From an uncultured Prevotella sp. (lineage in GTDB: Bacteria; Bacteroidota; Bacteroidia; Bacteroidales; Bacteroidaceae), in the NCBI GenBank assembly GCA_934204655.1, contig CAKPZJ010000004.1, forward strand, positions 62,001 to 126,000: a DNA stretch of 64,000 nucleotides. The letters run 5' to 3'. The position numbers were made by a program, and so were the translations under genes. Position 1 is the first letter of the stretch; each line of letters opens with the position of its first letter. Under the pieces are notes generated by a model. That model saw only the letters and a list, made by a program, of their open reading frames with translations, was not told the origin of the DNA and did not search any database. This document shows positions 17,926-59,178 of the stretch, piece by piece.

Positions 17926-17963
17926 TCATATATACCTTATTATATATAGTAACTACAACCATT

Positions 17964-21788: not shown

Positions 21789-21810
21789 TCCTATAGTTAC
21801 TCATTGTAGT

Positions 21811-27553: not shown

Positions 27554-27576
27554 TAAAACAAAATACTTGAAGACTG

Positions 27577-30699: not shown

Positions 30700-30722
30700 T
30701 AGACATAGTAATAATATAGAAT

Positions 30723-32795: not shown

Positions 32796-32817
32796 TCCTT
32801 TTAGCAGAACAATAGTT

Positions 32818-33816
32818 ATGAAACAGATATTTAAGTTAGTTATTATGTTGGTTGTTGCAGTGGGCTTTGCCTCCTGCAACAACGAATGGGAAAACGAGCA
32901 GTTCGCCCAGTACGTTTCTTTCAAGAGCGTGCCCACTACTCTTGGCATTACCGACACCTATTTGCGTTACAAGACTGCGGGCGAGGTTACCTACGAGCTT
33001 CCTATCATCATCAGTGGCTCTACTAACAACAAGACCGACCGTGTGGTCAAGGTCGCCATAGACCCCGATACCCTGGCCGACCTTAATATACGTAAGTTCG
33101 GTGGCCGTCCGGAACTTTATTTCAAGGAGTTGCCCTCGCAGTACTATTCGTTTCCGTCAGAGGTAACCATACCTGCCGGCAAGAACCAGGGCGTGCTGCC
33201 CATTACGTTCAAGCTGCAGGGTCTGGACCAGTCAGAGAAGTGGGTGCTGCCCATCGCCATCGTCGACGAGCCGGGGGCCAACTACAAGGCCAACCCGCGC
33301 AAGTATTACCGCAAGGCCATCCTGCGCATCCGTCCGTTCAACGACTTCTCGGGCACCTACTCTGGCTCACAGCTCATGTCTGTCCTCTCTGACGACCCCT
33401 CGCAGAAGGCTAACCGTAGCGACCAGCGCTGCTATGTGGTTAACGACAGCACCGTGTTCTTCTATGCCGGTCTGCGCGACATCGACTACCTGGACCGTAA
33501 GAACTACAAGGTGTTTTTCCACTTCACCAAGGAGCGTTACCGTATGCAGAAGTACTATGTAGACATCTATGCCGAGAACCCCGAGCTCAATTTCAAGGTC
33601 AACGGCCGCGCCTGCTACTCGGTAGTCAAGGAGATGGATGCCACCAAGACTTATCTGCAGCATACCTACATCACGATAGAGAATATAGACTACGAGTTTA
33701 CCGACTACACCACCATTCCTACCTATCCTCTGAAGTATCATATCACGGGTTCGCTCACCTTGCAGCGTGACCTCAACACGTTGATACCCGACCAGGACCA
33801 GGGTATTCAGTGGTAA
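32818..33816 (+). CDS. DUF1735/DUF4973-type surface lipoprotein
   Basis: A 332-residue lipoprotein (lipobox FASC, Cys at residue 20). The N-terminal half, with VSFKSVP, GEVTYELPIIISGS and the KYYRKAILRIRPFNDFSGTYS boundary, looks like the DUF1735 beta domain; the second half (about 175-330) looks like the DUF4361/DUF4973 partner. Such proteins are found after SusD and are considered glycan-binding accessory proteins. The DUF assignment is from memory of family sequences. Last gene of the promoter C operon, with a terminator 22 nt after the stop. Confidence 0.65.
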   Translation: MKQIFKLVIMLVVAVGFASCNNEWENEQFAQYVSFKSVPTTLGITDTYLRYKTAGEVTYELPIIISGSTNNKTDRVVKVAIDPDTLADLNIRKFGGRPELYFKELPSQYYSFPSEVTIPAGKNQGVLPITFKLQGLDQSEKWVLPIAIVDEPGANYKANPRKYYRKAILRIRPFNDFSGTYSGSQLMSVLSDDPSQKANRSDQRCYVVNDSTVFFYAGLRDIDYLDRKNYKVFFHFTKERYRMQKYYVDIYAENPELNFKVNGRACYSVVKEMDATKTYLQHTYITIENIDYEFTDYTTIPTYPLKYHITGSLTLQRDLNTLIPDQDQGIQW

Positions 33817-33837
33817 GCATACATATCATTATAACCG

Positions 33838-33875
33838 AGGGCCCGCAGGTGGAAACATCTGCGGGCCCTTTTGCG
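33838..33875 (+). terminator. Rho-independent terminator of the second SusCD operon
   Basis: GGGCCCGCAG … CTGCGGGCCC (33839-33868) forms a strong stem, followed by TTTTGCGATTTTT. Confidence 0.85.
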
Positions 33876-33879
33876 ATTT

Positions 33880-34190
33880 TTAGAAGTGAAAAAATCAAAG
33901 GGAAAAAAGCCCTCAAGCCCCCCAAGGGGGATGTGGGCTACCTACCAATGCCCATATATTACTGCTGTCAAAACAATAACCATCGTGGAAAAAGAAAAGA
34001 CCGACCTTTAGACTTCTAAAGACGGCTCCCAGCTCGCTAAAGACGGCTCCGGGAAACGTAAAGGTCGGTCTTTATGCTTCGGGTGACCGTTTCCGTTGCT
34101 ACCAAGGGGGCACCCATCCCCGCACTTTTTACCTTTTTACTCTTTTAAAGTTTTACTTTTCAAAAGAAGGTCGGTCTCTACGATTTTACG
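33880..34190. repeat. Composite intergenic repeat module (AAAGACGGCTCC-type, copy 3)
   Basis: Order: C-rich palindrome (CCCCCCAAGGGGGAT, near 33918), a spacer with ATAACCATCG, then the 80-bp element 33995-34073 with perfect 15-bp ends AAAGACCGACCTTTA / TAAAGGTCGGTCTTT and two TAAAGACGGCTCC units 21 bp apart, then GGGTGACCG … GGCACCCATCCC and CTTTTTACCTTTTTAC. The same order recurs at 45886-46191. Bases 34191-34490 hold a G-rich stretch with no feature I can name. Confidence 0.75.
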
Positions 34191-34490
34191 TGGCATCCCC
34201 ATGTCAGCCAAAGTTGGTTTCGGGGAGCGTGAATGATGCTTCACTGAAACGGGGGATGGGGGTGAATGGTGTACTGGGGCCGATGACGATATTGTGGGGC
34301 GGTGATGTGAAAATGGTAGGGATGATGGTGATGCCGCAGATAAGGAACCTTGTGCGGCTGGCGGCGATGGCAGTCCTGTGATGGATGGAGTGGGGTAGGG
34401 ATGTGGCTAAAGTGGGGCTGTCTGTGGCAGGAGTACACAATATTACCCCTATTCTGCGCAAAAAGCAAGTGGCGCATGGCGCTTTTGTCG

Positions 34491-34498
34491 TAATTTTG
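34491..34498 (+). promoter_or_regulatory. -7 box for the GH89 gene
   Basis: TAATTTTG matches TAnnTTTG and lies 86 nt before the GH89 start, followed by CAGCGTGG, similar to the start region of promoters A and B. The three upstream blocks of those promoters are absent. Confidence 0.5.
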
Positions 34499-34584
34499 CA
34501 GCGTGGACATGGTGGCTGCGCTGCCTATCGGTGCAGCCGCAAGGCCCATGACTCTGAGGTTACTAACCATCATCAATATACACT

Positions 34585-36843
34585 ATGATGCAGACTACTA
34601 TCAATATACGCCGGGTGCTCGTGTGTGTGGCCCTGGCCGCCCTTAGCCTTACGGCCATGAGGGCTACGCCCATCGACGGGCTCTTGGAGAGGATAGACAA
34701 GGGTGCCTCGCGCAAGTTCAAAATCGAACTGCACCGCGGAGCCGACGACTATTTCCGTCTCTCACAGCGCGGCAACCGTGTGTGTGTCGAGGGCAACACC
34801 TGGGTGAACATCGCCACGGGTATCAACTGGTACCTCAAGTACTACGCAGGCATCCACCTGAGCTGGAACCAGATGCAGGCCCACCTGCCGGCTCACCTTC
34901 CGCGCGTAGAGCGTCCTGAACGCCACGACACCCAGCTCCGGCTGCGCTACGACTTCAACTACTGCACGTACTCGTACTCGATGGCCTTCTGGGACTGGTC
35001 CCGCTGGCAGCGCGAGATAGACTGGATGGCCCTGCACGGCATCAACATGCCCCTGGCCATCGTGGGCACCGAGGTGGCGTGGCGCAATGTGCTGCTCCGA
35101 CTGGGCTACAGCCGCGAGGAGATAGGCCGCTTCATCGCCGGGCCGGCCTTTCTGGCCTGGTGGCACATGAATAACTTAGAGGGATGGGGCGGCCCGTTGC
35201 CCGAGACGTGGTACACGAAGCAGGAAGCCCTTCAGCGCAACATACTGCGCCGCATGCGCGAGCTGGACATGCACCCCGTGTTTCCCGGATACGCCGGCAT
35301 GCTGCCCCACGATGCCCCGGCCAAACTGGGAGTAGACGCCGTGGCCGGCGGAACGTGGAATGGCTATCAGCGGCCCGCCACCCTGTCGGCATCTGATAAG
35401 CGCTTTGACGAGATAGCCGACATGTACTACCGGGAGTTGACCCGCCTGTATGGGCGAGCCGACTACTACTCGATGGACCCGTTCCACGAGAGCGGAAACA
35501 ATGCTCGGGTAGACTACGCAGGTACCGGCCGGAGGCTCCTGGCCGCCATGAAGCGCGCCAACCCCAAGGCCACGTGGGTAATACAGGGCTGGACGGAGAA
35601 CCCGAGGCCTCAGATGATCGACGCGCTGCCTGCGGGCGACCTGCTGATACTCGACCTCTTCTCAGAGTGCCGTCCCATGTGGGGCATACCCTCCATCTGG
35701 CAGCGCAAGCAAGGCTATGGCAAGCACGAGTGGCTCTTCTGCATGCTGGAGAACTTCGGGGCCAACGTGGGACTGCACGGCCGCATGGACCAGCTGCTTC
35801 ACAACTTCTACCTGACCAAGGATAATCCGCTGGCGGCCCATCTGCGCGGCATAGGGTTTACCATGGAGGGGTCGGAGAACAACCCCATCATGTTTGAACT
35901 GATGAGCGAGTTGCCCTGGAGGCCCGACCCGATAGACCGCGATGCTTGGGTGCGTGGCTATGTACGTGCCCGCTATGGCAAGGACAACGACGATGTGCAG
36001 ACTGCCTGGTCCCTGCTGGCCCGCAGTATCTACAACTGTCCGGCTGGCAACAACCAGCAGGGCCCCCACGAGAGTATTTTCGATGCCCGTCCTGGCCTGG
36101 ATGTCTTTCAGGTCAAGTCGTGGTCTAAGATGAAGAACTACTACGACCCCCACGCCACCCTGGTGGCTGCGCGTCTCATGGTCGGTGCGGCCGACCGCTT
36201 TGCCGGTAACAACAACTTCGAGTACGACCTGGTAGACATCACCCGTCAGGCCCTCGACGACCAGGCCCGTATCCAGTACCAGCGCGTCATAGCCGATTAC
36301 AAGACCTTCTCGCGCGAAGCGTTCAAGCGCGACTCCCGCCGCTTCCTCAGCATGATTCTCCTTCAGGACAGGCTGCTGGGCACACGCTCCGAGTTCCGCC
36401 TGGGCCGCTGGACTGAGGCTGCCCGCGCCCTGGGTACCACGCCCGATGAGAAGCGCCTGTACGAATGGAACGCCCGCGTGCAGATTACTACCTGGGGCAA
36501 CCGCCGGTGTGCCGACCGCGGTGGTCTGCGCGACTACGCGCACAAGGAATGGCAAGGACTGCTGCGCGACTTCTACTATATGCGCTGGAAAACATACTTC
36601 CAGGCCATGGAGCAGCAGTTGGCTGCCGGGTCAGAGGCCAACTATGCTGTATTAGGGGGCAGCACCGGTTCGGCCAACACCTCGGCCGAGCTGTCCTCAG
36701 CCCGCACGGCTCCCTCGCTCACCATCGACTGGTACGCCCTGGAGGAGCCCTGGACGCTGGCCACCAACACCTATAGCGCCCAGCCCGAAGGCGAACCCAT
36801 CGAGGTGGCTCGCGATGTGATACGTTTCCTCAGTTCCGACTGA
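34585..36843 (+). CDS. GH89 alpha-N-acetylglucosaminidase
   Basis: A 752-residue exported enzyme (signal peptide about 1-27) of the NAGLU family, which removes terminal alpha-linked N-acetylglucosamine. Family landmarks: LRYDFNYCTYSYSMAFWDW, MALHGINMPLAIVGTE, MNNLEGWGGPLP, the acid in DPFHESG (Glu302) and the nucleophile in FTMEGSENNP (Glu428), 126 residues apart, close to the spacing known in GH89. Transcribed alone from its own -7 box. Its substrate type (mucin-like or alpha-GlcNAc-capped glycan) does not match the surrounding plant-glycan enzymes, so it may belong to another pathway. Confidence 0.9.
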   Translation: MMQTTINIRRVLVCVALAALSLTAMRATPIDGLLERIDKGASRKFKIELHRGADDYFRLSQRGNRVCVEGNTWVNIATGINWYLKYYAGIHLSWNQMQAHLPAHLPRVERPERHDTQLRLRYDFNYCTYSYSMAFWDWSRWQREIDWMALHGINMPLAIVGTEVAWRNVLLRLGYSREEIGRFIAGPAFLAWWHMNNLEGWGGPLPETWYTKQEALQRNILRRMRELDMHPVFPGYAGMLPHDAPAKLGVDAVAGGTWNGYQRPATLSASDKRFDEIADMYYRELTRLYGRADYYSMDPFHESGNNARVDYAGTGRRLLAAMKRANPKATWVIQGWTENPRPQMIDALPAGDLLILDLFSECRPMWGIPSIWQRKQGYGKHEWLFCMLENFGANVGLHGRMDQLLHNFYLTKDNPLAAHLRGIGFTMEGSENNPIMFELMSELPWRPDPIDRDAWVRGYVRARYGKDNDDVQTAWSLLARSIYNCPAGNNQQGPHESIFDARPGLDVFQVKSWSKMKNYYDPHATLVAARLMVGAADRFAGNNNFEYDLVDITRQALDDQARIQYQRVIADYKTFSREAFKRDSRRFLSMILLQDRLLGTRSEFRLGRWTEAARALGTTPDEKRLYEWNARVQITTWGNRRCADRGGLRDYAHKEWQGLLRDFYYMRWKTYFQAMEQQLAAGSEANYAVLGGSTGSANTSAELSSARTAPSLTIDWYALEEPWTLATNTYSAQPEGEPIEVARDVIRFLSSD

Positions 36844-46480: not shown

Positions 46481-46488
46481 TACTTTTG
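46481..46488 (+). promoter_or_regulatory. Possible second -7 box close to the oxidoreductase operon
   Basis: TACTTTTG, 31 nt before ATG 46519. It could be a constitutive promoter besides promoter D, or chance in AT-rich DNA. Confidence 0.4.
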
Positions 46489-46518: not shown

Positions 46519-47817
46519 ATGGAAGAAAAACAGATAAACAGGCGGAGATTTCTGCAGAACCTGGGCATGGTAGGAGCCGGCGTGCTGGCCGCTACGAGCC
46601 CCTGGCTGTCGGTATTCTCCGAAGTGAAGCATACAGACAAGGAACGCTGCCGTATCGGAATGATTGGCCCCGGTTCCCGTGGCCGCTTCCTGCTGAGTTT
46701 CCTCGTCCAGAACCCCAAGGCCGACATTGTCGCCATCGCTGATGTCTACCAGCCTTCGATAGATGAGGCCCTCAAGCTGGTTCCTAAGGCCAAGGTGTAC
46801 CGCGACTACCGCGCCCTGCTGGCTGACCGCAGCATCGATGCCGTCGTAGTGGCCACCCCGCTCAATACTCACTATCAGATAGTGATGGATGCTTTCGATG
46901 CCGGCAAGGATGTGTACTGTGAGAAGTCTATCGGCTACACCATCGAGGAGTGTTACAACATGTACAAGCGCCACCTGTCTTCGGGCAAGATTTTCTTTAC
47001 CGGCCAGCAGCGTCTCTTCGACCCCCGCTATATCAAGGTTATGGATCTGGTTCACCGAGGTACCTTTGGCAAGATTGCCGCTGTCCACGCCTTCTGGAAC
47101 CGTAACGGCGACTGGCGCCGCGAGGTGCCCGACCCCAAGTTAGAGCGGTTTATCAACTGGCGTCTGTACAAGGCATCGTCGCACGGACTGATGACCGAGT
47201 TGGCGTGTCACCAGTTACAGGTGGGAACATGGGCCTTGGGTCGTCTGCCGGACAAGGTAATGGGCCACGGAGGTATCACCTTCTGGAAGGATGGCCGCGA
47301 GGTGTACGACAACGTGAACTGCATCTACGCATACAATACTGGCGAGAAGATAACGTACGGCTCTGTCATCTCCAACAAGTTCTATGGACTGGAGGAGCAA
47401 ATCCTGGGCAACTTGGGAACCGTAGAGCCCGAAAAGGGAAAGTACTACTTCGAAGAGGTGGCCCCTGCGCCTGCTTTCCTGCAGATGATTAACAACTGGG
47501 AGAATACCCTTTTCGATGAAATACCGTTCGCCGGAACCAGCTGGGCCCCTGAGACGGCCAATACGAACAATGGCGAGTACATCCTGGACAGCGGCCGCCC
47601 TAAGACCGACGGCACCTCGCTGCTCCTCGATGCCTTTGTCGAGGCTGTGGTTACCCAGCGTCAGCCCAAGAACATCGCCGAGGAAGGCTATTACGCCAGC
47701 CTGCTCTGCCTGTGGGGCCATGAGGCCATGGTACGTGGCGAGATACTGCCTTTCCCTGACCAGTACAAGATTAATTATCCAGTTTACGGAACCCGAGAAA
47801 ACAGCCAAGCTATATGA
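46519..47817 (+). CDS. Tat-exported Gfo/Idh/MocA-family oxidoreductase
   Basis: A 432-residue NAD(P)-dependent oxidoreductase. A twin-arginine signal (NRRRFLQNLGMVGAGVLAA, residues about 7-25) sends it folded to the periplasm. The Rossmann start RIGMIGPGSRGR (from about residue 45) and YCEKSIGYT follow the family order; the usual EKP is EKS here. The C-terminal domain has HGLMTELACHQLQVG. Members include GH109-like glycosidases and sugar 3-dehydrogenases with a tightly held cofactor. In this operon with a second such enzyme and DUF1080, oxidation of a glycoside 3-OH to a keto sugar is the likely role. The stop overlaps the next start by 4 nt (ATGA), so translation is coupled. Confidence 0.8.
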   Translation: MEEKQINRRRFLQNLGMVGAGVLAATSPWLSVFSEVKHTDKERCRIGMIGPGSRGRFLLSFLVQNPKADIVAIADVYQPSIDEALKLVPKAKVYRDYRALLADRSIDAVVVATPLNTHYQIVMDAFDAGKDVYCEKSIGYTIEECYNMYKRHLSSGKIFFTGQQRLFDPRYIKVMDLVHRGTFGKIAAVHAFWNRNGDWRREVPDPKLERFINWRLYKASSHGLMTELACHQLQVGTWALGRLPDKVMGHGGITFWKDGREVYDNVNCIYAYNTGEKITYGSVISNKFYGLEEQILGNLGTVEPEKGKYYFEEVAPAPAFLQMINNWENTLFDEIPFAGTSWAPETANTNNGEYILDSGRPKTDGTSLLLDAFVEAVVTQRQPKNIAEEGYYASLLCLWGHEAMVRGEILPFPDQYKINYPVYGTRENSQAI

Positions 47818-48062
47818 AAGATATAATACTTACCTCGAAGAGGCAGAAATGCGAGCTCTGGTACCTGTTAGGTGCCTTTGTAGTGGCCAACCTGTGCAAC
47901 GTGGGGGCCATCATCGCTTACGAGGCACCCGTTACGGAGCTGTTTACCTCTATCTTTTATGTGCTGTGCTTCACCGTGTTCCTGTATGCGGTGAGCGTGG
48001 TGGCCCGGCTGCTCTGGGCTGGCACCAAGCAACTATTTAAGAAGAAAAAGACTAACAACTAA
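47814..48062 (+). CDS. Small two-helix membrane protein between the oxidoreductases
   Basis: An 82-residue protein: a short basic N-terminus (MKDIILTSKRQKCELW), two hydrophobic helices (about 17-36 and 43-68) and a Lys-rich tail (KKKKTNN). No cofactor motif is apparent; Cys residues lie at 13, 28 and 51. Its ATGA overlap with the upstream oxidoreductase and 13-nt gap to the next one indicate tight coupling. It may anchor the exported enzymes at the membrane or pass electrons from them; both are inference. I do not recognise a named family. Confidence 0.75.
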   Translation: MKDIILTSKRQKCELWYLLGAFVVANLCNVGAIIAYEAPVTELFTSIFYVLCFTVFLYAVSVVARLLWAGTKQLFKKKKTNN

Positions 48063-48075
48063 AATCTAAAAGACA

Positions 48076-49506
48076 ATGACAAGCAGAAGAGATTTCCTGA
48101 AAGCCATGGGCGCATCGGTCGCTGGCGTGGCACTGAGTGGGCTCAATGGAGCCATGGCCGCTCCCCTTACCTCCAAAGAGTGGGCCTCGGCCAAGAAGGA
48201 CAAGGTTAAGATAGCCTATATAGGCATTGGCAACCGCGGAGAACAGAATATCACCGAGTTTGCCAAGACGGGCATGGTAGAGGTTACCTGCCTGTGCGAC
48301 GTGGACATGGGCGCACACCACACGCAGAAGGTTATGAACATGTACCCCAAGGCCAAGCGCTTCCGCAACTTCCGCGAGATGTTCGAGAAGGCTTCGGGCG
48401 ACTTCGAGGCCGTCTGCGCATCGGTGCCCGACCACATGCACTTCCCCATAGCCATGATGGCTCTCTCATACGGTAAGCATATCTACCTGGAGAAGCCCAT
48501 GTGCCGCACATTCCTTGAGGGAGAACTTATGATGGAAATGGCCAAGCGCCACCCAGAGGTAGTTACGCAGGTGGGAAACCAAGGCCACTCTGAGGCTAAC
48601 TACTTCCAGTTCAAGGCTTGGAAAGACGCCGGAATTATCAAGGACGTTACCGCCATTACAGCACACATGAACAATCCCCGCCGTTGGCACAAGTACGATG
48701 CTAACATGATCCAGATGCCTGGAGGCGAGCCTATGCCTCAGGGCATCGACTGGGACACATGGGTAGGCCCCTGCGAGTACTTAGGCTACTCTGAGAAATA
48801 TCACCAGGGCAACTGGCGCTGCTGGTACAACTATGGTATGGGAGCCTTAGGCGACTGGGGTGCTCACCTGCTGGACACCGCGCACGAGTTCCTGAACCTC
48901 GGGCTGCCTTACGAGGTCACCATGAAGTATGCCAAGGGTCATAACGACTACTTCTACCCCTTCTCGTCGACCATCCTCTTCCGTTTCGCCGCCCGCGACG
49001 GCATGCCTCCCTGCGACGTTACCTGGTACGACGGTCTGGACAACCTGCCCCCATTGCCTAAGGGCTACGGTGGTTCTGAGTACAACGCCAACGTGCCCTC
49101 GACCAATCAGGGCAACACGCCTGTCTCTAAGCTCAACCCGGGTAAGGAGATTTACTCGCGCGACCTTATCTTCAAGGGCGGTAGCCACGGCAGTACGCTG
49201 AAGATAATACCGTCAGAAAAGGCCGCCGAGATGAAGGACAAGCTGCCCGTAGTACCCAAGAGTCCGTCTAACCACTATGTTAACTTCCTCCGTGCTTGTC
49301 TCGGCACCGAGAAGACACGCTCTCCGTTTGAGATAAACGGTGTTCTGAGCCAGGTATTCTGCCTCGGTGTTATCGCCCAGCGCCTCAATACGCAGCTGTT
49401 CTTCGATCCCCGCACCAGGCAGTTTACCAATAACGAGTTTGCCAACGCCCTCCTGGCTGGTATGCCTCCTCGCCGTGGTTGGGAAGACTTCTACAAAGTA
49501 AAATAA
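48076..49506 (+). CDS. Second Tat-exported Gfo/Idh/MocA-family oxidoreductase
   Basis: A 476-residue enzyme with a classic Tat signal ([19 protein letters not shown]), the Rossmann motif [14 protein letters not shown] from about residue 45 and the family's EKP (YLEKPMCRT). The long C-terminal domain has [33 protein letters not shown] and a final RRGWEDFY, matching the sub-group often annotated as GH109-like or 'oxidoreductase' in Bacteroides. It differs strongly from the enzyme at 46519, so the pair probably acts on different substrates or steps. DUF1080 follows 22 nt later. Confidence 0.85.
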
Positions 49507-49528
49507 CTACATTAATATAATAGTAACA

Positions 49529-50881
49529 ATGAAGAAAATTATTCTAACAGCATGTGTTGCCATGTTCGCCTTCAGTGGTTACGCACAGAACTGGCAGTCA
49601 CTCTTTAATGGTAAGAACCTCAGTGGTTGGAAACAGCTCAACGGTTCGGCTAAATACACCGTTGAGAACGGTGCCATCGTGGGTCACACGGTCCGTAACA
49701 GCAACAACTCATTCCTCTGTACCAAGAAGACTTATGGCGACTTCATCCTCGAGTTCGACTTCCGTGTTGACAACGGTATCAACTCTGGCGTGCAGTTCCG
49801 CAGCGAGAGCCTGAAGAGCTATCAGAACGGCCGTGTACACGGCTACCAGTTCGAGATAGACCCCTCTAAGCGCGCTTGGACCGGTGGTGTCTACGACGAG
49901 GCTCGCCGTGGCTGGCTCTATAACCTCAATAACAACCCCGCCGCCAAGAAGGCCTTCAAGAACAACGAGTGGAACAAGGCGCGTGTTGAGTGTATCGGCA
50001 ACTCTATCCGCACATGGGTTAACGGCATTGCCTGTGCTGACCTGCTGGACAACACTACCCTTAACGGTTTTATCGCACTCCAGGTTCACGCCATTGGCAA
50101 GGACGGCAAGGAAGAAGGTAAGACTATAGCTTGGAAGAACATACGTATATTGACCAAGGACGTGGCTAAGTACGCCACCCCAGCAAACGAGAGCGTAGAG
50201 CAGATCAATCTCGTGGACAACACTATCTCTGAGCGCGAGGCCAAAGAGGGCTGGAAACTCCTCTTCGATGGTAAGACCACCAACGGATGGCGTGGCGCTA
50301 AGCTCGATAAGTTCCCCGCCAAGGGCTGGGTTGTCGAGAACGGTATTCTGAAGGTGCTCGCCGGCAACGGTGGTGAGTCTACCAACGGTGGCGACATCGT
50401 TACCACACGTACTTACCGCAACTTCATCCTCAAGGTAGACTTCAAGATTACCAAGGGTGCCAACAGTGGTATCAAGTACTTCGTTGACCCCTCTATGAAC
50501 AAGGGCGCCGGCTCGGCCATCGGTTGCGAGTTCCAGATTCTTGACGACCTGCGTCACCCCGATGCTAAGCTGGGTGTTAAGGGCAACCGCAAGCTCGGTT
50601 CTCTCTATGACCTCATCCCTGCTCCAGCCAACAAGCCGTTTGACATCAACAAGTTCAACACTGCAATGATTGTTGTGCGCGGCAATCACGTCGAGCACTG
50701 GCTTAATGGCGTCAAACTGTTGGAGTATGAGCGCAACAACCAGGAGTGGAACGCCCTCGTAGCTTACAGTAAGTACAAGAACTGGCCTAACTTCGGTAAC
50801 TTTACCGATGCCAACATCCTGCTTCAGGACCATGGCAACGAGGTGTGGTTCAAGAACGTAAAGATTCTCGAACTCCAGTAA
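49529..50881 (+). CDS. Secreted double DUF1080 (3-keto-disaccharide hydrolase/lyase-type) protein
   Basis: A 450-residue protein with a Sec signal peptide (ends GYAQ, residue 20) and two concanavalin-like DUF1080 domains: about 22-205 ([16 protein letters not shown] … [18 protein letters not shown]) and about 237-450 ([14 protein letters not shown] … [20 protein letters not shown]). DUF1080 (Pfam 3keto-disac_hyd) enzymes cleave 3-keto glycosides by elimination or hydrolysis after a Gfo/Idh/MocA enzyme has oxidised C3. Finding both enzyme types in one operon supports that route here. The tandem duplication could mean two activities or a catalytic plus a binding copy. Confidence 0.85.
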
Positions 50882-50889
50882 TCATCTGA

Positions 50890-51645
50890 ATGGCCCATAT
50901 CATCAGAGAACTGCCCGACGGTACCACGGCACTCTATGCGTGGTTCATGGCTATGCACACCCGTGTGGACGTTCTGCTGAAGGCGGCCGACAGCACCCTG
51001 CTGATGCCTGCTGTACATGACGTGAGACAACTTATCGGGGAGATAGAGGCTGCGGGCAACCGTTTCGCCCCTACCTCCCAGTTAGCAACACTCAACCGCA
51101 ATGGGCAGATGGCCTTTACTCATCCAGAAGGCCACTTGTACCGCATGATAGCCCAGTGCCTGCGCTTCAATGCGCTGACACTGGGACTATTTGACATTAC
51201 TGTTTCATCCAGGAGCCACTCCCCACATACCATTGACCTGGTACACCTCACTGCAGATACCATTTACTTTGACGAGCCTACCGTGAGCCTCGACCTGTGC
51301 GGCTTTATCAAGGGCTATGCCCTCGACCAGATTAAGCCGATGCTCGCGGCTCATGGCATAGCCGACGCCATTGTCAACATGGGCAACAGCTCGGTGCTGG
51401 CCATGGGCCACGTGCCCAGCAAGTTTACCGGCTGCCTCACCACGTCGGGCAACGATACCCCCACGAGGCGCCACATCGTCAACCCGATAACCGGCCAGTG
51501 GGTCGAAGGCCGTAGCCAGGTATCTGTCAGGACCCAGGGCGGTGCCGAGGGCGAAGTGCTGGCCACCAGTGTACTGCTGGCCGACGACCGCCAGCTGCTC
51601 CAGCTGAAGCGTAATTTCCATATCGAAGACATTAACTATCAGTAG
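50890..51645 (+). CDS. Divergent ApbE-like FAD:protein FMN transferase
   Basis: A 251-residue protein, shorter than usual ApbE (about 320-350). Recognisable parts: the N-terminal FxPxSQLATLNRNG segment, SLDLCGFIKGYALDQI (for DLGGIAKGYAVD) and the end GAEGEVLATSVLL, where the usual metal-binding Asp of ADALATA appears to be Glu. ApbE links FMN covalently to target proteins at (D/S)GAT(S/T)-type sites, normally in the periplasm; this one has no signal peptide or lipobox, and I see no such target motif in the neighbouring proteins. It sits 8 nt after the DUF1080 gene. It may be an enzyme with altered activity; confidence in the family is good, in the activity low. Confidence 0.7.
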   Translation: MAHIIRELPDGTTALYAWFMAMHTRVDVLLKAADSTLLMPAVHDVRQLIGEIEAAGNRFAPTSQLATLNRNGQMAFTHPEGHLYRMIAQCLRFNALTLGLFDITVSSRSHSPHTIDLVHLTADTIYFDEPTVSLDLCGFIKGYALDQIKPMLAAHGIADAIVNMGNSSVLAMGHVPSKFTGCLTTSGNDTPTRRHIVNPITGQWVEGRSQVSVRTQGGAEGEVLATSVLLADDRQLLQLKRNFHIEDINYQ

Positions 51646-51676
51646 TCCTCCGGGGCTACGCTTTACATTATTATAT

Positions 51677-54610
51677 ATGAAGAAGACTATATTATCTCTC
51701 CTTGCCCTGAGTATGGGAGTCCTCTCGGTCTCTGCCCAGGCCACCTTGGGCTCCGAGTTCCCACTCGCAGGGAGTACCGGCACGGTTACCGTATGTTACG
51801 ATGGCCACGAGCCCACGCTCATGAAGCGCGTGTCCATGCTGTTTGCCGACGACGTAAACCGTGTGACCAACCACCGACCCGCTGTGGCCGACATCAGTCA
51901 GGGCAAGGTCAAGGCCAAGCGTGCCGTCATCGTGGGCACCCTTGCCAATGTCTGGATTAAGCGCATGGCGCAAAAGGGCAAGATAGACACCACGGGCCTT
52001 ACGGGCGCCTGGGAACGCTACCGCATCCAGATAGTCAAGAAACCGGCCTCCGGAATAGACGAGGCCCTGGTAGTGGCCGGCAGCGACCGCCGTGGAGCCG
52101 CCTACGGACTGCTCTCGGTATCGCGCGCCATCGGTGTCAATCCCTGGTACTTCTGGGCCGATGCCCCTGTGGCCAAGCGTACTAACGTGGCTGTCAACGT
52201 GAAGCCCTTTACCTCGAAAACTCCGAGCGTCAAGTATCGCGGCATATTCATTAACGACGAGGACTGGGGCCTCTTCCAGTGGGCTAAGCACAATTTTGAG
52301 AAAGACCGTGGCAACTTCGGCCCCCGCACTTATGGCGGCATCTGCGAGTTGCTGCTCCGTCTCAATGCCAATTATCTCTGTCCCGCCATGCACAACTGCT
52401 CGCTGGCTTTCTACAAGGACGCCGAGAACAAAGTGGTCGCCGACAGCTTTGGCATCGTCATGGGCACCTCCCATTGCGAGCCTCTGTTCCTCAATACGGC
52501 TACAGAGTGGGACCGCAAGAAGTTCGGAGAGTGGAATTATGTGACCAATAAGCGCGGCATAGACAGCGTGCTGACCGCCAGGGTCAAGGAAACGGCTCCC
52601 TACGAGAACGTTTATACCGTGGCGTTACGCGGCCTGCACGACGTGGCCATGGCTGGAAGCAACGACTTGGGCGAGCGCAAGGACGTGATGGCTAAGGCTG
52701 TCGAGGGACAGCGCCAGATATTGGCCGATGTACTCAAGCGGCCCGCCAAGGACGTTCCCCAAGCCTTTACTCCTTACAAGGAGGTGCTTGATGTGTACGA
52801 CCACGGACTCCAGTTGCCTGACGACATCACCCTCATCTGGCCCGATGACAACTATGGCTACTTCAAGCGTCTGAGCAACCCCACCGAGCAGAAGCGTTCG
52901 GGTCGCTCGGGTGTGTATTATCACTCTTCGTATCTGGGCCGGCCGCATAACTACCTGTGGATGAATACCACCTCGCCCGCCCTGATGTACGAGGAGCTGC
53001 GCAAGGCTTACGACTCGACTGCCGACCGTATCTGGCTGCTCAACGCCGGCGACATTAAGCTCTGCGAGTTTGCTGTTGACTACTTCCTCAACCTCGCCTA
53101 CGACATTGACGCGTTCGACTACCAGCGTACTGTCAACTACCGTACCGAGTGGACGTGCGGTATGTTAGGCAGCCAGTACAAGGGCGACATTGCCGACATC
53201 TTCCGCTCTTTCTATGACCTCGCTTTCCAGCGTAAACCCGAGTGTATGGGCTTTGGCTCTCAGTGGACGAACGACGCTCACGGCCGCGAGGTCAATGTTG
53301 ATACCGAGTTCTCGCTTACCAACTATGGCGAGGCCCAGCGCCGTATCGCCGAGTACACCCGCATAGGTGCCAAGGCCGAGCGCATGCTCGCCCAGATGCC
53401 TGCCGACAAGCGCGCCTGTTTCTATGAGAACGTGTACTACCAGGTTAAGGGCTGTGAGCTGATGAACCGTACCATCCTCTACGGCCAGCGCAACCGTTGG
53501 TATGCCTTGCAGCAGCGGGCAGCCACCGATACATGGGCCAAACTGTCTACCGAGTGCTTCGACAGCCTGGAAACCATTACCAAGCGCTATAATACCATGC
53601 TCAATGGCAAGTGGAACCACGTTATTACGATGCGCCAGGAACGCACCTCGGCTTACTTTGAGCGTCCGGAACTGCGCAAGGCCACCCTGGTCGATGGCGC
53701 CGACATGGCCCTGCTGGCCGAAGACGAGGATGTACTGCGCGGAGCCAGCAGCTACCACGCCCTGCCCGCCTTCAGCAAGTACCTGCCCACCTCTTATTAT
53801 ATAGAGGTGTTCAACCGCGGCAAGAAGGCGTTCAAGTTTACTGCCAAGGCTTCGGCCCCCTGGATTAAGCTGTCTAAGACTGCCGGAACCGTGACCGAGG
53901 AGACCCGTCTGCAGGTTTCGGTAGACTGGGCCAAGGCTCCTGTGGGCGACCGCGTGGCCGGCCAGGTTACGGTGACGGCCGATAACGGTCAGCGCGAGAC
54001 CGTCCTCGTGTCGCTCTTCAACCCCGCCGCTCCTGCTAAGAGCGAGCTCAAGGGCGAGTACGTCGAGACCAACGGCTACATAGCCATCCCCGCCGTTGGC
54101 TTCCATCGTAAGCAGGAAGCTAAGGACGTCAAGATTTCTGTCATTGACAACTTCGGTGCCGAAGGCAAGGCCGTGCAGCTTGGCGACCCCGTGGCCACCC
54201 AGTGGTACACCAACCGCCGCAGCGCTCCTTATGTCGAGTACGATTTCTACTGCTTCACCCAGGGCCCCGTTGACATCTACACTTACGTGTTGCCCACCTT
54301 CACGCTCAATAACGACCGCGGCTACGCTGGCCATGAGCGCACCAACATCGAGACCCACTACGGCATCACCATCGACAACAGCCGTATCCTTGAGGCTTCT
54401 ACCTCGTCGTTCGAATATGCCCAAAAGTGGTACGAGAGCGTCATGCGCAACTGCCGCATCAACAAGACCACCCTTAATGTAATGACTCCCGGTCACCACA
54501 AGCTCCGCATCATCTGCGGCGACCCTGGTACCGTTCTCCAGAAGGTGGTTCTCGACTTTGGCGGTATGAAGCGCTCGTACATGGGCCCTCAGTCTACACA
54601 AGTTAAATAA
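51677..54610 (+). CDS. Third, divergent GH115 alpha-glucuronidase
   Basis: A 977-residue secreted enzyme (signal peptide ends VSAQ, residue 21) with the GH115 barrel motifs YRGIFINDEDWGLFQWA, LRLNANYLCPAMHN, LIWPDDNYGYFKRLS and RIWLLNAGDIKLCEF. The C-terminal part keeps the classical GH115_C beta-sandwich (ending GGMKRSYMGPQST) and lacks the accessory modules and sorting tail of the two enzymes at 17964 and 21811. In the barrel, WPDDN replaces their WVDDN. So it belongs to another GH115 branch and probably has a different target linkage. Lies in the oxidoreductase operon, 31 nt after the ApbE-like gene. Confidence 0.9.
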   Translation: MKKTILSLLALSMGVLSVSAQATLGSEFPLAGSTGTVTVCYDGHEPTLMKRVSMLFADDVNRVTNHRPAVADISQGKVKAKRAVIVGTLANVWIKRMAQKGKIDTTGLTGAWERYRIQIVKKPASGIDEALVVAGSDRRGAAYGLLSVSRAIGVNPWYFWADAPVAKRTNVAVNVKPFTSKTPSVKYRGIFINDEDWGLFQWAKHNFEKDRGNFGPRTYGGICELLLRLNANYLCPAMHNCSLAFYKDAENKVVADSFGIVMGTSHCEPLFLNTATEWDRKKFGEWNYVTNKRGIDSVLTARVKETAPYENVYTVALRGLHDVAMAGSNDLGERKDVMAKAVEGQRQILADVLKRPAKDVPQAFTPYKEVLDVYDHGLQLPDDITLIWPDDNYGYFKRLSNPTEQKRSGRSGVYYHSSYLGRPHNYLWMNTTSPALMYEELRKAYDSTADRIWLLNAGDIKLCEFAVDYFLNLAYDIDAFDYQRTVNYRTEWTCGMLGSQYKGDIADIFRSFYDLAFQRKPECMGFGSQWTNDAHGREVNVDTEFSLTNYGEAQRRIAEYTRIGAKAERMLAQMPADKRACFYENVYYQVKGCELMNRTILYGQRNRWYALQQRAATDTWAKLSTECFDSLETITKRYNTMLNGKWNHVITMRQERTSAYFERPELRKATLVDGADMALLAEDEDVLRGASSYHALPAFSKYLPTSYYIEVFNRGKKAFKFTAKASAPWIKLSKTAGTVTEETRLQVSVDWAKAPVGDRVAGQVTVTADNGQRETVLVSLFNPAAPAKSELKGEYVETNGYIAIPAVGFHRKQEAKDVKISVIDNFGAEGKAVQLGDPVATQWYTNRRSAPYVEYDFYCFTQGPVDIYTYVLPTFTLNNDRGYAGHERTNIETHYGITIDNSRILEASTSSFEYAQKWYESVMRNCRINKTTLNVMTPGHHKLRIICGDPGTVLQKVVLDFGGMKRSYMGPQSTQVK

Positions 54611-54618
54611 CCATAACT

Positions 54619-55737
54619 ATGCGAAAATTATCAGCTATACTACTGGGCGCGGCGCTGGCCGCCGTGCCCGTGCTGTGCTGGGCTCAGCACACGCCCAACA
54701 GTCAGAAGAAGTGGGCCTGGCTCAACTTTGAGCGGCCCGCGGGAGTCAACCCCGTCATCTCGCCCCGTCCCTCGTCCGTGTTCAACTGCCCTATGCAGGG
54801 CCGCCCCATCGGCTGGGAGGAGAGCGAGACCTTTAACCCAGCTGCCACCATCAAGGGCGACAGTATTATCGTGCTTTATCGTGCCGAGGACAACACCCAT
54901 CAGGGCATCGGCAGCCGTACCTCGCGCTTAGGCTATGCTGCCTCGGCCGACGGCATCCACTTCAACCGCCGCCCGCTGCCTGTGTTCTATCCCGACAACG
55001 ACAGCCAGGCTGCCAACGAGCACCCCGGTGGCTGCGAGGATCCCCGCGTGGCCGTTACCGAGGACGGAATGTACGTCATGTTCTATACTCAGTGGAACCA
55101 CAAGTACGCTCAGCTCGCCGTGGCCACCTCTCGCGACCTGCAGCACTGGACTAAGCACGGCCCCGTCTTTGGCGACAACAAGCGCTATCCCGGCACTAAG
55201 TACACCAAGTCGGCCTCTATCCTTACCAAGATGAAGAATGGTCGCCAGGTCATTACTAAGCTCAACGGCAAGTACGTGATGTTCTGGGGCGAGTACTTTG
55301 TCAATGTGGCCACCTCTGACGACCTCATCCACTGGACTCCCACGCTCGACGACAAGGGCAATATCCTCAAGGCCATGACCCCGCGCCGTGGCTACTTCGA
55401 CAGCATGCTCACCGAGTGCGGCCCTCCTGCCCTGCTCACCAAGAAGGGCATCCTGCTCTTCTACAATGGCAAGAACAGCAAGAGCAACGGCGACCCCAAG
55501 TACACGGCTAACGCCTACTGCGCCGGCCAGGCACTCTTCAGCAGCAAGGACCCTAACAAGCTGCTGGACCGCCTTGACGAACCGTTCTTTAAACCCGAAC
55601 TCGACTTCGAGAAGAGTGGTCAGTATCCTGCCGGTACTGTCTTCATCGAGGGCTTAGTGCCTTTCCACGGTTCCTGGTACCTGTACTACGGTTGTGCCGA
55701 CTCTCGCGTGTCGGTAGCTGTACGCAAGGGCAAGTAG
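54619..55737 (+). CDS. Secreted GH130-family glycosidase or phosphorylase
   Basis: A 372-residue protein with a Sec signal peptide (ends CWAQ, residue 23) and a five-bladed propeller. GH130 motifs: FNPAATIKGDSIIVLYRAED, RLGYAASADGIHF, GGCEDPRVAVTEDGMYVMFY, ECGPPALLTKKGILLFYNG and LYYGCADSRVSVAV. GH130 includes beta-mannoside phosphorylases (usually cytoplasmic) and exported beta-1,2-mannosidases; the signal peptide favours a hydrolase, but I did not check the phosphate-binding residues. Last gene of the seven-gene operon, 8 nt after GH115. Confidence 0.75.
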   Translation: MRKLSAILLGAALAAVPVLCWAQHTPNSQKKWAWLNFERPAGVNPVISPRPSSVFNCPMQGRPIGWEESETFNPAATIKGDSIIVLYRAEDNTHQGIGSRTSRLGYAASADGIHFNRRPLPVFYPDNDSQAANEHPGGCEDPRVAVTEDGMYVMFYTQWNHKYAQLAVATSRDLQHWTKHGPVFGDNKRYPGTKYTKSASILTKMKNGRQVITKLNGKYVMFWGEYFVNVATSDDLIHWTPTLDDKGNILKAMTPRRGYFDSMLTECGPPALLTKKGILLFYNGKNSKSNGDPKYTANAYCAGQALFSSKDPNKLLDRLDEPFFKPELDFEKSGQYPAGTVFIEGLVPFHGSWYLYYGCADSRVSVAVRKGK

Positions 55738-55761: not shown

Positions 55762-55806
55762 AGACGAGGGATGCTGGCATGGAGCCGGCATCCCTCGCTT
55801 GTCTTT
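55762..55806. terminator. Terminator between convergent GH130 and C10 peptidase genes
   Basis: CGAGGGATGC … GCATCCCTCG (55765-55797), extended by AGAC/GTCT, followed by TTGTCTTTAT. Likely serves the plus-strand operon. Confidence 0.75.
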
Positions 55807-55853: not shown

Positions 55854-58800
55854 TTAGTGAGTCACCTTGATACCTTTTATAATATAGGTGCCGTGGCCGT
55901 ACTGCTGCAACTGTGGGCGGCGGTTGCGTATCTGTGTAGTACCTATCAGCTGGCCGCCTATGGTGTACACTGGTACCCCCTCCTCGTCCTGGCTCCATGT
56001 GGCGGTGTCTATGCCTGTGGCCATGGCCTCGATGACTATGCTGGCTGGGCGCTGGGCAGCCACCTCCTTGGGCACCATGTAGGCCCTGAAGGGCTCCACC
56101 TCGGCTCCCTCGGCCTGGTAGGCCATCGCGTTGCCGCTGCCGTTGAGCACGTAGCTGTCCGTCAGGTTCTGGTGCAGCGTAGAGCCCACCATGTCATAGG
56201 CATCGGTCATGGCTCGCTGGGCCCGCTGGGCTCTCAGCGTTACATGGGTAGCCTTGAAGGTCAGTGTGGCTCCCTTCAGCTCGCCCTCGGCCTTGATGAC
56301 GTAGGGGCGGTCGGCCCCTATCTTGTTGGCCGCTACGAATACAGGCAGGCCATCGGCCCCCGTGCCGCCAAACTCGCTCACGTACAGCCGCTTCTGGTCT
56401 ATCTGTACGGCCCCCGTGGCCGTGGTGATGGCCGAGGGGGCAAAGGGCAGCGCCAGTGTCTGCCAGTTGCGTGCCCCCTGCGTGTTGGCTGCCATGGAGC
56501 GTGCATAGCTGATGCTGCCCACCTCGATGTCGCACGGCACAGCCAGTGCGTAGCCGTCGCTCAGCGTGATGGTGTTAGCATAGTTGCCCTTTACCACGTT
56601 CTTCTTGGCTATGTCTGCCGGCACCGTGGCTCCGGCATCCAGGATGTAGAGCGCGTTGGGGTTAGTCGACGGCTTGATAGTGCTGATGCCGCTCACCCCG
56701 CGCATATCTATGGCTGCCGCGTCGCCCGTATCTACCGTGGCCGATGGCGGAGTGGCCGTGGTGGCTCCCGTTTCATCGTAGAAGATGATGCCGGAACGCT
56801 GTGCGCGCGAGTAGATGACATTTGCGTTGTTGTCTACCACTGCCTGCTCGCCCTCGTAGAACAGGCGCAGTCCGTAGCGGTAGCCCACGGGCGTATTGGC
56901 AAACCCAAAGCGCACCCGGGTTTGCTCCCCGGCAGCCACCCGTACCGACACCAGCTGCTTGTCTATCACGGTCATGCTGTTGCTACCTGTGACGCCCCGG
57001 TACAGCTTTACCACTAAGCGGCCGTCAAAGTCGGCTGTTGCCTTGTTGTTCAGTATGAGTGTGCCCGTACGCGTGGTGCCATACACCACATTGTTTACTA
57101 TGTTGTCGTAAGCCACGTAGCCCACCGAGAGGTTGGCCTGGTTCTGGTCGGTATCGGTTATGGTTACCGTGGTGTGTCCCACGGGTTGGCTGCCGGCTGC
57201 GTCCTTGGCTATCCATACATGGTAGGTGCCCGCCGTGGTGGGTGTAAAGTAGAATGATGCCAGCACCTCGCGGCCTGTGGGCAGGGCCACCTGGGCCGTG
57301 CTGGCGGCCGACCCCTTGGCGGTCGATGGGCTGGCCAGGCAGTACAGCTTGCCGTAATACTCCTTGGCCGTGTTGGTCAGTGTTACCTTGACCAGCTGTT
57401 TTACGTTCTTGACCAGGTTGCCCGTCATGGCCCACGACTTGACGGTTACGGCCGACTGGTCCGCGGGGCCTAAGCTGAGTGTAACCTTGCCCCCCTTTAC
57501 CACCGCCAGTACATACTCAGTGGCCACCTCGCCACAGGGCTTCCACGCGGTGGTTCCCAGCGGGGTGTACACAGGCACCAGGTGGTAGGTGCCGTCGGCC
57601 AGTCCCTTGATGGTAAACGTGACCGTCCTCTCGTAGTTAGTGCTCAGCCACAGGGTCGTGCTGCCCAGCGTGCTGAGTGTTCCGTCGGCCTGGGCTATGG
57701 CTATGCCACCCTGCTGGATGATGGTGGTGCCCGAGAAGTTGGTAAAGGTGATGCTCACCGTGTTGCCGCTCACCTTGATATAGCGTGCCGTGGGCCGCGC
57801 GGTCACATCGGTGCCGCTATCCACCCCGTCGTTGGGCATAATGCCTATCAGGGCCTCCTGCTCGTAGGCATATCCGGAGCCAAAGTTCGTGCTTTCTGCT
57901 CCCGGTTCGGCCGAATAGAGCGAGCCTATGCGGAAGAAACCGTCGCTCTTGCCGCCCCAGCCCCAGTTAACATGGAAGAGGTCGTCGCTGTCGTAGCCGT
58001 CGATGACGAAGGCATGGCCTCCTGAGGGCGAGTTGGCGCGGTAGCCCACCGGGCGACCCTGGGCCAGCTCGCCGTAGAGCAGGTCGGTCCACTGGCGCTG
58101 GCTGTAGCCCCGGCGATACACGTAGTCTATGCGCTCGTCGTAGCCCAGGTAGTCGCGCAGCAGCGGTTTGCCTAACGTCAGGTTGGCTGCCGACTGGCTG
58201 CCGTAGTTCATCTGGACCCCCGTGCCCAGTAGCTGCATCAGCTGGGCCACCGCCTGCTGCTCCTCGGCCGTGCTGGCACTGGTGTAGGTGTCGGTCATGT
58301 GGGCCCAGTCTATGGCCGTGCCGGCCGCCACGCCCTCTACGCGTACGTCCTTGCCCCCGCTTGTAAAGGAGTAGGCCGGTATGGCCGCCGTGGTCTTGGC
58401 CGGATAGCGGTAGTAAGCCATTATCTGGGCCAGGGTGGTGGCCACACAGCCCGTCAGTCCCCGCTGTCCGCTCGACGACCCGTTGCTGTTGTTGTACACT
58501 GGGCACAGGTTGTTGTAGGGTGCCCGCTGGTTCCACTGGGTGCTTATCAGCGGGGCCACATAGTGGCGTGCCTGTTGTGCTATGGTAGTCTCGGCTGCTG
58601 CCGGAGCCTTCGCCGCGCCCGTCTGGGCCATGGCCTGTATCTGGCTGGCGTACACGGCCAGCAGGGCACCCAGTCCGTGCTCCATATCGGTGGTGGTGTA
58701 GCTGCCCCGGTCGGTATATCCTAACACCGTTGGGGTGCGGTCATCGCCCGAGATGATGACAAATCCGCCCCCGTCGGCCACGTCATATATATAATAAGGT

Positions 58801-58997
58801 GTAGCCTGGCCCGCAGTCGCCCCCTCGCTCGGGGCCTTGGCCGGGGCCGATGGGGTGCTCAGTGCCTTGCCCCGCAGGGCCACAAAACGGCTGGCCGCCG
58901 TGCGTGCTGTCTGCGGGTCTACGGGTGCGGCCATGGCGGTGCTACCCAGTAGCACGGCACTGACAATGGTAAGGATGGTGGCTCGTAGCATGTTCAT
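55854..58997 (-). CDS. Secreted C10-family cysteine peptidase (streptopain-like), multidomain
   Basis: A 1047-residue secreted peptidase. Signal peptide MNMLRATILTIVSAVLLG, a propeptide of SpeB/Spi type (YYIYDVADGGGFVIISGDDR), and a papain-like domain with Cys184 in LTGCVATTLAQIMAYY, His328 in GGHAFVIDGYD and FHVNWGWGGKSDGFF. Then several Ig-like beta domains (about 400-730), a 'NWQTLALPF' domain (about 870-990) and a tail YTIGGQLIG … GTYIIKG like the sorting tails of the glycosidases. The start at 58997 gives a proper signal peptide; a -7 box at 59091-59084 excludes the longer form. Substrate proteins unknown. Next to inhibitor-like remnants upstream. Confidence 0.9.
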   Translation of the reverse strand: MNMLRATILTIVSAVLLGSTAMAAPVDPQTARTAASRFVALRGKALSTPSAPAKAPSEGATAGQATPYYIYDVADGGGFVIISGDDRTPTVLGYTDRGSYTTTDMEHGLGALLAVYASQIQAMAQTGAAKAPAAAETTIAQQARHYVAPLISTQWNQRAPYNNLCPVYNNSNGSSSGQRGLTGCVATTLAQIMAYYRYPAKTTAAIPAYSFTSGGKDVRVEGVAAGTAIDWAHMTDTYTSASTAEEQQAVAQLMQLLGTGVQMNYGSQSAANLTLGKPLLRDYLGYDERIDYVYRRGYSQRQWTDLLYGELAQGRPVGYRANSPSGGHAFVIDGYDSDDLFHVNWGWGGKSDGFFRIGSLYSAEPGAESTNFGSGYAYEQEALIGIMPNDGVDSGTDVTARPTARYIKVSGNTVSITFTNFSGTTIIQQGGIAIAQADGTLSTLGSTTLWLSTNYERTVTFTIKGLADGTYHLVPVYTPLGTTAWKPCGEVATEYVLAVVKGGKVTLSLGPADQSAVTVKSWAMTGNLVKNVKQLVKVTLTNTAKEYYGKLYCLASPSTAKGSAASTAQVALPTGREVLASFYFTPTTAGTYHVWIAKDAAGSQPVGHTTVTITDTDQNQANLSVGYVAYDNIVNNVVYGTTRTGTLILNNKATADFDGRLVVKLYRGVTGSNSMTVIDKQLVSVRVAAGEQTRVRFGFANTPVGYRYGLRLFYEGEQAVVDNNANVIYSRAQRSGIIFYDETGATTATPPSATVDTGDAAAIDMRGVSGISTIKPSTNPNALYILDAGATVPADIAKKNVVKGNYANTITLSDGYALAVPCDIEVGSISYARSMAANTQGARNWQTLALPFAPSAITTATGAVQIDQKRLYVSEFGGTGADGLPVFVAANKIGADRPYVIKAEGELKGATLTFKATHVTLRAQRAQRAMTDAYDMVGSTLHQNLTDSYVLNGSGNAMAYQAEGAEVEPFRAYMVPKEVAAQRPASIVIEAMATGIDTATWSQDEEGVPVYTIGGQLIGTTQIRNRRPQLQQYGHGTYIIKGIKVTH

Positions 58998-59083
58998 CTG
59001 TATGGTGTCTATTAGAAGGTTTATGGTTCTTATTGGTAGTAGGCCCGTGACAGGCAGTGTGCCCGCGGCCCTCTTGCTGCTGG

Positions 59084-59091
59084 CAAAGATA
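59084..59091 (-). promoter_or_regulatory. -7 box of the C10 peptidase gene
   Basis: TATCTTTG on the minus strand, about 87 nt before the start codon; no convincing -33. Confidence 0.5.
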
Positions 59092-59178
59092 GCGAAAAAA
59101 AACATTCAAGGGACTTGAAATCAAATATTTAACATATTAAAAAGGCATCCTCAGTCACGGTGGGCTGTAGCGGTATGA

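Follow-up and report, generated by a model that had tools for sequence, protein, structure and literature searches.

The operon and its predicted products

Seven genes at positions 46519 to 55737 of a window of 64,000 nucleotides (nt) from an uncultured Prevotella sp. (GenBank assembly GCA_934204655.1, contig CAKPZJ010000004.1, positions 62,001 to 126,000 of the forward strand) were subjected to comparative sequence and gene-neighbourhood analysis. They encode two oxidoreductases of the Gfo/Idh/MocA family (GFO1 and GFO2), a small membrane protein (MEM), a double DUF1080 protein, an ApbE-like protein (ApbE) and two glycoside hydrolases (GH), and the main subject here is GFO1 as a candidate flavin-carrying enzyme, together with MEM and ApbE. 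All genes are on the + strand with intergenic gaps of -4, 13, 22, 8, 31 and 8 nt, and the closest relative, a metagenome-assembled genome (MAG) of Prevotella sp. SUG78 (L003), keeps all seven in the same order at 95-99% identity, which bears out an earlier note on this DNA that had described them as one unit. The operon is bounded on the GH130 side because the gene that follows (55854-59105) has the opposite orientation (- strand) and an inverted repeat lies in between. As judged from this layout, the predicted seven-gene operon is real. Its features are:

46481..46488, +, TACTTTTG, weak candidate for a Bacteroidetes-type -7 box upstream of GFO1 (pattern match only)
46519..47817, +, GFO1, Gfo/Idh/MocA oxidoreductase of the twin-arginine translocation (Tat) type with an RRxF N-terminus, predicted acceptor of flavin mononucleotide (FMN)
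47530..47544, +, codons of A338-G339-T340-S341-W342, predicted flavinylation site (S341)
47814..48062, +, MEM, 82-residue two-helix membrane protein, ATGA overlap with GFO1
48076..49506, +, GFO2, Tat-type Gfo/Idh/MocA protein with an RRxF N-terminus, relative of the BT2158 glycoside 3-dehydrogenase
49529..50881, +, double DUF1080 protein of the 3-keto-disaccharide hydrolase family (PF06439 twice, 308.5 bits; Sec signal by eye)
50890..51645, +, diverged ApbE (PF02424, 86.5 bits, cut-off 25.6), no signal peptide by eye
51677..54610, +, GH115 of the alpha-glucuronidase family (PF15979, 400.4 bits; PF17829, the C-terminal domain, 129.1 bits), a local addition
54619..55737, +, GH130 of the beta-1,2-mannosidase type (NF058598, 574.2 bits, cut-off 550), a local addition
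55766..55796, unstranded, inverted repeat 3' of GH130, possible shared terminator, by eye from the sequence

Six of the operon proteins were recognised by Pfam, the seventh being MEM, for which no Pfam or NCBIfam family was matched. Against NF058561, the model of BT2158, GFO2 scored 254.6 bits and GFO1 84.4 bits, both below the cut-off of 750. GFO2 matched the PDB entries 8tdf (163 bits) and 8tdh (160 bits), the DUF1080 protein matched 4jqt (727 bits) and GH115 matched 4zmh (503.7 bits). The consensus of the -7 box was assumed to be TAnnTTTG, and no -33 box was found upstream of the candidate at the spacing tried.

Recurrence of the gene set in Bacteroidota

The core of the recurring set is the trio GFO1, MEM and ApbE. 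GFO1 scored above 300 bits in 35 loci, of which 31 had MEM, 31 ApbE, 24 DUF1080 and 17 GFO2 (>500 bits); these include the same operon twice (window and L003), and since loci were chosen by DUF1080, GFO1 or MEM matches, the fractions should not be taken as unbiased frequencies. ApbE and the membrane protein had already been named as conserved partners in the earlier note, and they are. Its inclusion of GH115 and GH130 in the conserved system did not survive the neighbourhood survey: the two enzymes occur together in 2/35 GFO1 loci only, both being the same operon, and a conserved seven-gene system was rejected on this count. A contig scan with the window ApbE returned the nearest MAG as its sole match. 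MEM, ApbE, DUF1080 and two or more Gfo/Idh/MocA genes were found together in 22/35 loci.

Wherever MEM is present (31 loci), no more than 300 nt separate it from GFO1; for ApbE this is so in 19 loci, the distance being greater in 12. Eight partner absences were counted in the 35 loci, four of them on cut contigs: L063 (MEM missing), L062 (ApbE missing) and L065 (both missing). The others are L067, without MEM, L068, without both, and L073, without ApbE and with an incomplete GFO1 frame (1966-2742) that covers the C-terminal part only, although it lies inside the contig. Gene order varies: GFO1-MEM-GFO2-DUF1080-ApbE in the window and several relatives, GFO1-MEM-ApbE-GFO2-x-DUF1080 in L020 and L021, and DUF1080-GFO-ApbE-GFO1-MEM in L074 and L075. 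In L020 the gene x (8113-9216) between GFO2 and DUF1080 is a GH88, another uronic-acid enzyme at the same place. Despite this reshuffling, the trio recurs in several families and is not confined to a single class of the phylum.

ApbE and MEM track GFO1 rather than DUF1080, because neither was present in any of the 20 DUF1080 loci without GFO1 that had no contig end within 4 kb of either side, 4 of which have GFO2. Among all 32 DUF1080 loci without GFO1, ApbE occurred in 2 and MEM in 1, both on cut contigs (L083, L085). GFO2 (>500 bits) and DUF1080 were found without GFO1 in 10 loci; nine had neither ApbE nor MEM (4/9 again free of contig ends within 4 kb in both directions), and in the tenth, L085, the contig starts inside the operon. 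The idea that ApbE and MEM serve both oxidoreductases, as first proposed, was given up on these nine loci, and a general partnership of ApbE with DUF1080 or GFO2 was rejected on the loci without GFO1.

In the order sample (295 genomes), GFO1 was detected in 19 genomes, MEM in 20 and both in 17 (P ~1e-22), the two genes being adjacent in 15/17 and at contig ends in the other two. GFO1 occurred alone in G120 and G294, and MEM alone in G262, G306 and G313. In the phylum sample (345 genomes), MEM was found in 4 genomes, all of them among the 29 with a GFO1-like protein (E <=1e-70).

With the limits applied, the DUF1080 protein had matches in 38 of the 295 order genomes and in 28 of 301 family genomes; GFO1 and MEM profiles were searched in the order and phylum samples, and up to 20 kb were read around most matches. 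Neighbourhoods were read for 34/41 (order) and 19/28 (family) DUF1080 matches, those left out being mostly half-length, for 19/19 GFO1 and 21/21 MEM matches in the order, and for 4/4 MEM and 24/30 GFO1-like matches in the phylum (left out: G954, G693, G903, G724, G643 and the second place of G792). Short stretches (L001, L002, L004-L012), L032 (same DNA as L003) and L076 (overlapping L058) were dropped before loci were counted, and fragments below 300 bits (L064, L066) fall outside the 35 GFO1 loci.

GFO1, its relatives and ApbE

The flavin target is likely GFO1, at the predicted site Ser341. Among the 33 alignment rows covering this position, 32 have Ser and one Thr, followed by an invariant Trp. 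The pattern [AGST]Gx[ST]W was present in 32/34 GFO1 (exceptions: L063, which is cut, and L061, with GSSSW) and absent from GFO2 (0/27) and paralogues (0/26). In the window clade it takes the form [AG][GS]x[ST]W, and [AGST][GS]x[ST]W was found in 119/120 database relatives of the window GFO1 (best 120 of 1330). One GFO1 relative, P0012 (663 residues), has a long internal duplication, perhaps an assembly artefact.

The known ApbE flavinylation site is given as [S/T]GA[S/T] in passages of PMC11334425 and PMC8238504. Aligned at the 341 site, 11 GFO1-like proteins from elsewhere in the phylum (L129-L131, L133-L136, L139-L142) carry DGV[STA]GA[TS]; DUF1080 and a second Gfo/Idh/MocA gene lie nearby in 10/11, and ApbE was found in none of the 11 loci within the stretch read. 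A database search with one of these 11 proteins of the related clade (best 120 of 3275) gave D..[ST]GA[ST] in 98/120, 89 of them DGVSGAT, and DGVAGAT in the other 22. Five relatives with an ApbE of their own (L124-L128) have GGATW. The strict motif occurs in 14 of the 844 long frames scanned on the loci, and 11 of the 14 are GFO1 relatives; across 35 GFO1, 38 MEM, 27 GFO2, 54 DUF1080 proteins and 34 ApbE, the one protein with strict [ST]GA[ST] was a distant GFO1, that of L068. Strict D..[ST]GA[ST] is also present in two long frames close to loci of the MEM or GFO1 type (L072 5616-6926 and L128 13253-15412), which may be further ApbE targets or chance matches.

A tree of 55 sequences (root for drawing only; L003 and short fragments left out) separated an altered-motif group of 35 rows (support 100/99), with ApbE in the locus for 34 and the remaining one cut, from a canonical or AGAT group of 12 rows without ApbE beside GFO1 (support 99/99). 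Four ApbE-linked relatives without the motif fell outside both groups, L143 on a long branch. An ApbE was encoded in 18/18 further genomes tested, including all 12 without ApbE beside GFO1. We read the GFO1 site as a probable flavinylation site, which may be served in the canonical branch by an ordinary ApbE and in the altered-motif branch by a private one.

A twin-arginine pattern was present in 31/32 long GFO1 and TatC in 23/23 genomes tested; in the window, Pfam TAT_signal was called for GFO2 only, not for GFO1. The residues G50, G52, G55, D75 and K136 are invariant in GFO1 and presumably serve binding of nicotinamide adenine dinucleotide (NAD) and catalysis.

The operon ApbE looks like a working, specialised enzyme. 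The window ApbE as a single query matched no solved structure, and the profile of trio ApbEs matched solved FMN transferases (7esa, E 2.1e-29). Asp-Ser-His is named as the catalytic triad in a passage of PMC12052999, which also reports cytosolic ApbEs, and a residue stacking on the flavin is described in part of PMC4767422. Among 33 trio ApbEs, KG and the catalytic Ser are kept in all, His in 31/33 and GxFD nearly always, the window ApbE having both Ser and His; as located by alignment, the flavin-stacking position holds F or Y in 32/33. The catalytic or metal-binding Asp is replaced by Glu, a conservative change, in 33/33 and is Asp in 8/8 other ApbEs (the usable frames from 15 other-ApbE loci of trio-bearing genomes). 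Nearly all trio ApbEs have GxSS instead of GGE, and two loops are gapped in most. No export signal or lipobox was evident by eye in 34 ApbE N-termini, some starts being uncertain. Each of 13 trio genomes encodes an additional ApbE.

MEM has two hydrophobic helices (residues 8-36 and 41-81; model mean predicted local distance difference test, pLDDT, 77), and E14, N29, E42, Y58 and R65 are invariant in 21 aligned sequences. The membrane protein had been offered as one candidate for the link to cofactor reoxidation. As a flavin carrier it is unlikely, since [ST]GA[ST] is present in 0/38 MEM and none of the columns invariant across the 21 aligned is Ser or Thr, and GFO1 is likelier. The role of MEM is lineage-bound, given that it was not found beside GFO1 in five ApbE-linked loci, and it is plausibly an anchor or electron outlet that is not universal. 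In a search for MEM substitutes, the 400 nt flanking each of 15 GFO1 genes on both sides were scanned for short hydrophobic same-strand frames; this returned the MEM already known from L053 and L061 and a 61-residue frame upstream in L130.

Proposed mechanism, alternatives and known systems

On balance, we consider it probable, by a modest degree, that GFO1 is a Tat-exported, NAD-type oxidoreductase with FMN phosphoester-linked to Ser341 by the operon ApbE, acting in a periplasmic 3-keto-glycoside route. From the computed gene order, trio recurrence, motif homology and ApbE family and residues, we infer FMN attachment, compartment, electron path and substrates as follows. Folded, cofactor-loaded proteins are carried by Tat, so a signal-less ApbE could load GFO1 before export; the operon ApbE would attach FMN to Ser341 in the cytoplasm, and folded GFO1 would then be exported. 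GFO1 and GFO2 would oxidise the sugar at C3 and the double DUF1080 protein would cleave the 3-keto-glycoside. The covalent FMN would accept hydride from the NADH of GFO1, which would be reoxidised outside the cytoplasm; such transfer would be possible if the FMN loop reaches the NAD site, a reach that the model does not show. Where present, MEM would anchor GFO1 to the inner membrane and may relay electrons to quinone. The flavin link, already raised in the earlier note, is retained as the best lead.

A wider reading is put forward tentatively and is itself doubtful: a phylum-wide Gfo/Idh/MocA family with NAD and covalent FMN may feed periplasmic sugar electrons into the membrane, one branch having co-evolved a new motif with a private ApbE, cytoplasmic attachment before Tat and MEM as membrane partner.

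Several observations weigh against the assignment of FMN to Ser341 of GFO1. The window motif is AGTS rather than strict [S/T]GA[S/T]. Conservation alone does not single out position 341, because nine GFO1 columns are Ser or Thr at >=90%, with Ser221 and Thr226 as invariant as Ser341. Residues 335-350 have pLDDT <50 in the GFO1 model and are probably a flexible loop with conserved sequence. The strict motif also arises by chance, in 3 non-GFO1 frames among the 844 scanned, and genomes commonly encode some ApbE, so that its presence in the 12 genomes lacking one beside GFO1 discriminates little. In L132, L137, L138 and L143, from distant Bacteroidota, ApbE lies beside or overlaps a GFO1-like gene with no recognisable motif, and the 5.7 kb contig L073 has MEM and its incomplete GFO1 frame but no ApbE. 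The proposed part of MEM is weakened in the same way: no His or Cys is invariant in the aligned MEM, which leaves no obvious redox site, and MEM occurs without GFO1 in 3 order-sample genomes, in G262 without any trio partner within 20 kb. It was not found beside GFO1 in L124-L128, which have ApbE and GGATW, nor in L067, and therefore cannot be an obligatory electron acceptor.

The alternative that survives best, although we regard it as rather unlikely, is that ApbE modifies another protein (MEM or one encoded elsewhere), GFO1 being a conventional NAD enzyme that uses a second sugar to regenerate its cofactor and the conserved loop to bind substrate. It would accommodate the four motif-less ApbE-linked relatives and the invariance of Trp342 and Glu345 next to Ser341, as in a substrate loop. 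Glucose-fructose oxidoreductase, a related exported enzyme to which a fold match was found, regenerates its tightly bound cofactor by means of a second sugar. For this reason, the earlier premise that cofactor reoxidation outside the cytoplasm must be solved by a partner does not necessarily hold. In the keto-glycoside route, NAD-type enzymes are sent into a compartment that lacks a free pool of NAD, which poses the question of their reoxidation. The lack of [ST]GA[ST] in 38 MEM, 27 GFO2 and 54 DUF1080 proteins, the canonical motif at the aligned site in the related clade, and the tracking of GFO1 by ApbE, not of its neighbours, all speak for GFO1 as the target instead.

It is improbable that this is a plain glycan operon in which ApbE and MEM hitch-hike by gene order with no functional link: gene order is reshuffled among lineages and the surrounding glycoside hydrolase genes vary, as that would lead one to expect, but the trio survives the reshuffling in several families and more than one class. 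Least probable of all is that the ApbE-like protein puts a different nucleotide on GFO1, such as the nicotinamide mononucleotide half of NAD, by which the exported enzyme would keep its nicotinamide cofactor; the clade-specific ApbE changes (Glu for Asp in 33/33, GxSS replacing GGE almost throughout, gaps in two loops of most sequences) and the invariant G50, G52, G55, D75 and K136 of GFO1 would fit, but the flavin-stacking aromatic is kept (F or Y in 32/33) and the usual FMN motif is found in the related clade, with ApbEs elsewhere in its genomes.

The operon GH115, two further GH115 at 17895-25029 of the window (to each of which it is 35-36% identical) and the GH88 of L020 hint at uronic acid glycans as substrate. 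The two further enzymes belong to a large glycan locus (4565-25029) with SusC, SusD, GH43 and GH127, perhaps directed at a uronic-acid-rich plant glycan, in which a 727-residue protein (13610-15793) had no Pfam match at E 0.001. A second glycan locus (26168-36843) encodes a TIG protein, SusC, SusD, a DUF4973 protein and an alpha-N-acetylglucosaminidase with NAGLU domains, which we take to be GH89. The gene convergent with the operon (55854-59105, -) encodes a C10 cysteine peptidase with a Spi inhibitor domain.

The recurring company of an exported sugar-oxidising enzyme, a dedicated enzyme predicted to attach its flavin and a very small membrane protein suggests a new way of handling electrons during sugar breakdown outside the cytoplasm. 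If FMN is indeed carried by GFO1, a flavinylated Gfo/Idh/MocA protein would answer how exported keto-glycoside enzymes are reoxidised, and a large enzyme class would join the known ApbE targets, with a target motif changing together with the modifying enzyme. The prediction is directly testable, as it names one residue and one mass shift (+438 Da).

Among known systems, the BT2157-BT2159 route of Bacteroides thetaiotaomicron, in which Gfo/Idh/MocA and DUF1080 proteins act through 3-keto-glycosides, is similar in combining an exported Gfo/Idh/MocA enzyme with a DUF1080 protein, and GFO2 matches the BT2158 model, although under its cut-off. We know of no counterpart of GFO1, MEM and ApbE in that route. 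PMC11300592, a paper concerning BT2158, does not contain the term 'ApbE'. For P0143, apparently the same protein as the GFO1 relative of L130, matches to NAD-dependent sulfoquinovosidases, DgpA and glucose-fructose oxidoreductase stop by residue 323 (8tdi; most others by ~300) among the best 60 of 73, and the motif Thr, residue 325 in L130, lies beyond these.

In the open-licence PMC literature searched, no report of a flavinylated Gfo/Idh/MocA protein was found, nor any paper on ApbE together with DUF1080 or with polysaccharide utilization loci, and the main texts of PMC8238504 and PMC11334425 do not contain 'gfo'. With ApbE (Ftp) FMN transferases and their targets (NqrC, FMN-bind, DUF2271) the system shares the enzyme family, a mostly kept Ser and His of the triad and [ST]GA[ST] in GFO1 relatives; it differs in an ApbE without evident signal peptide, with Glu for Asp and two loops gapped in most, and in a proposed target of the Gfo/Idh/MocA type. 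A signal-less ApbE acting on a cytoplasmic protein is described for Klebsiella, where a cytosolic ApbE modifies a soluble fumarate reductase (passages of PMC12052999), whereas the proposed target of the operon ApbE would then be exported by Tat. Caulobacter LacABC with DUF1080 is likewise a case of periplasmic C3 oxidation, of lactose, followed by proposed DUF1080 cleavage, but according to PMC9007349 its lactose 3-dehydrogenase is a three-component, membrane-bound enzyme, whereas the oxidoreductases of the operon are of the Gfo/Idh/MocA type.

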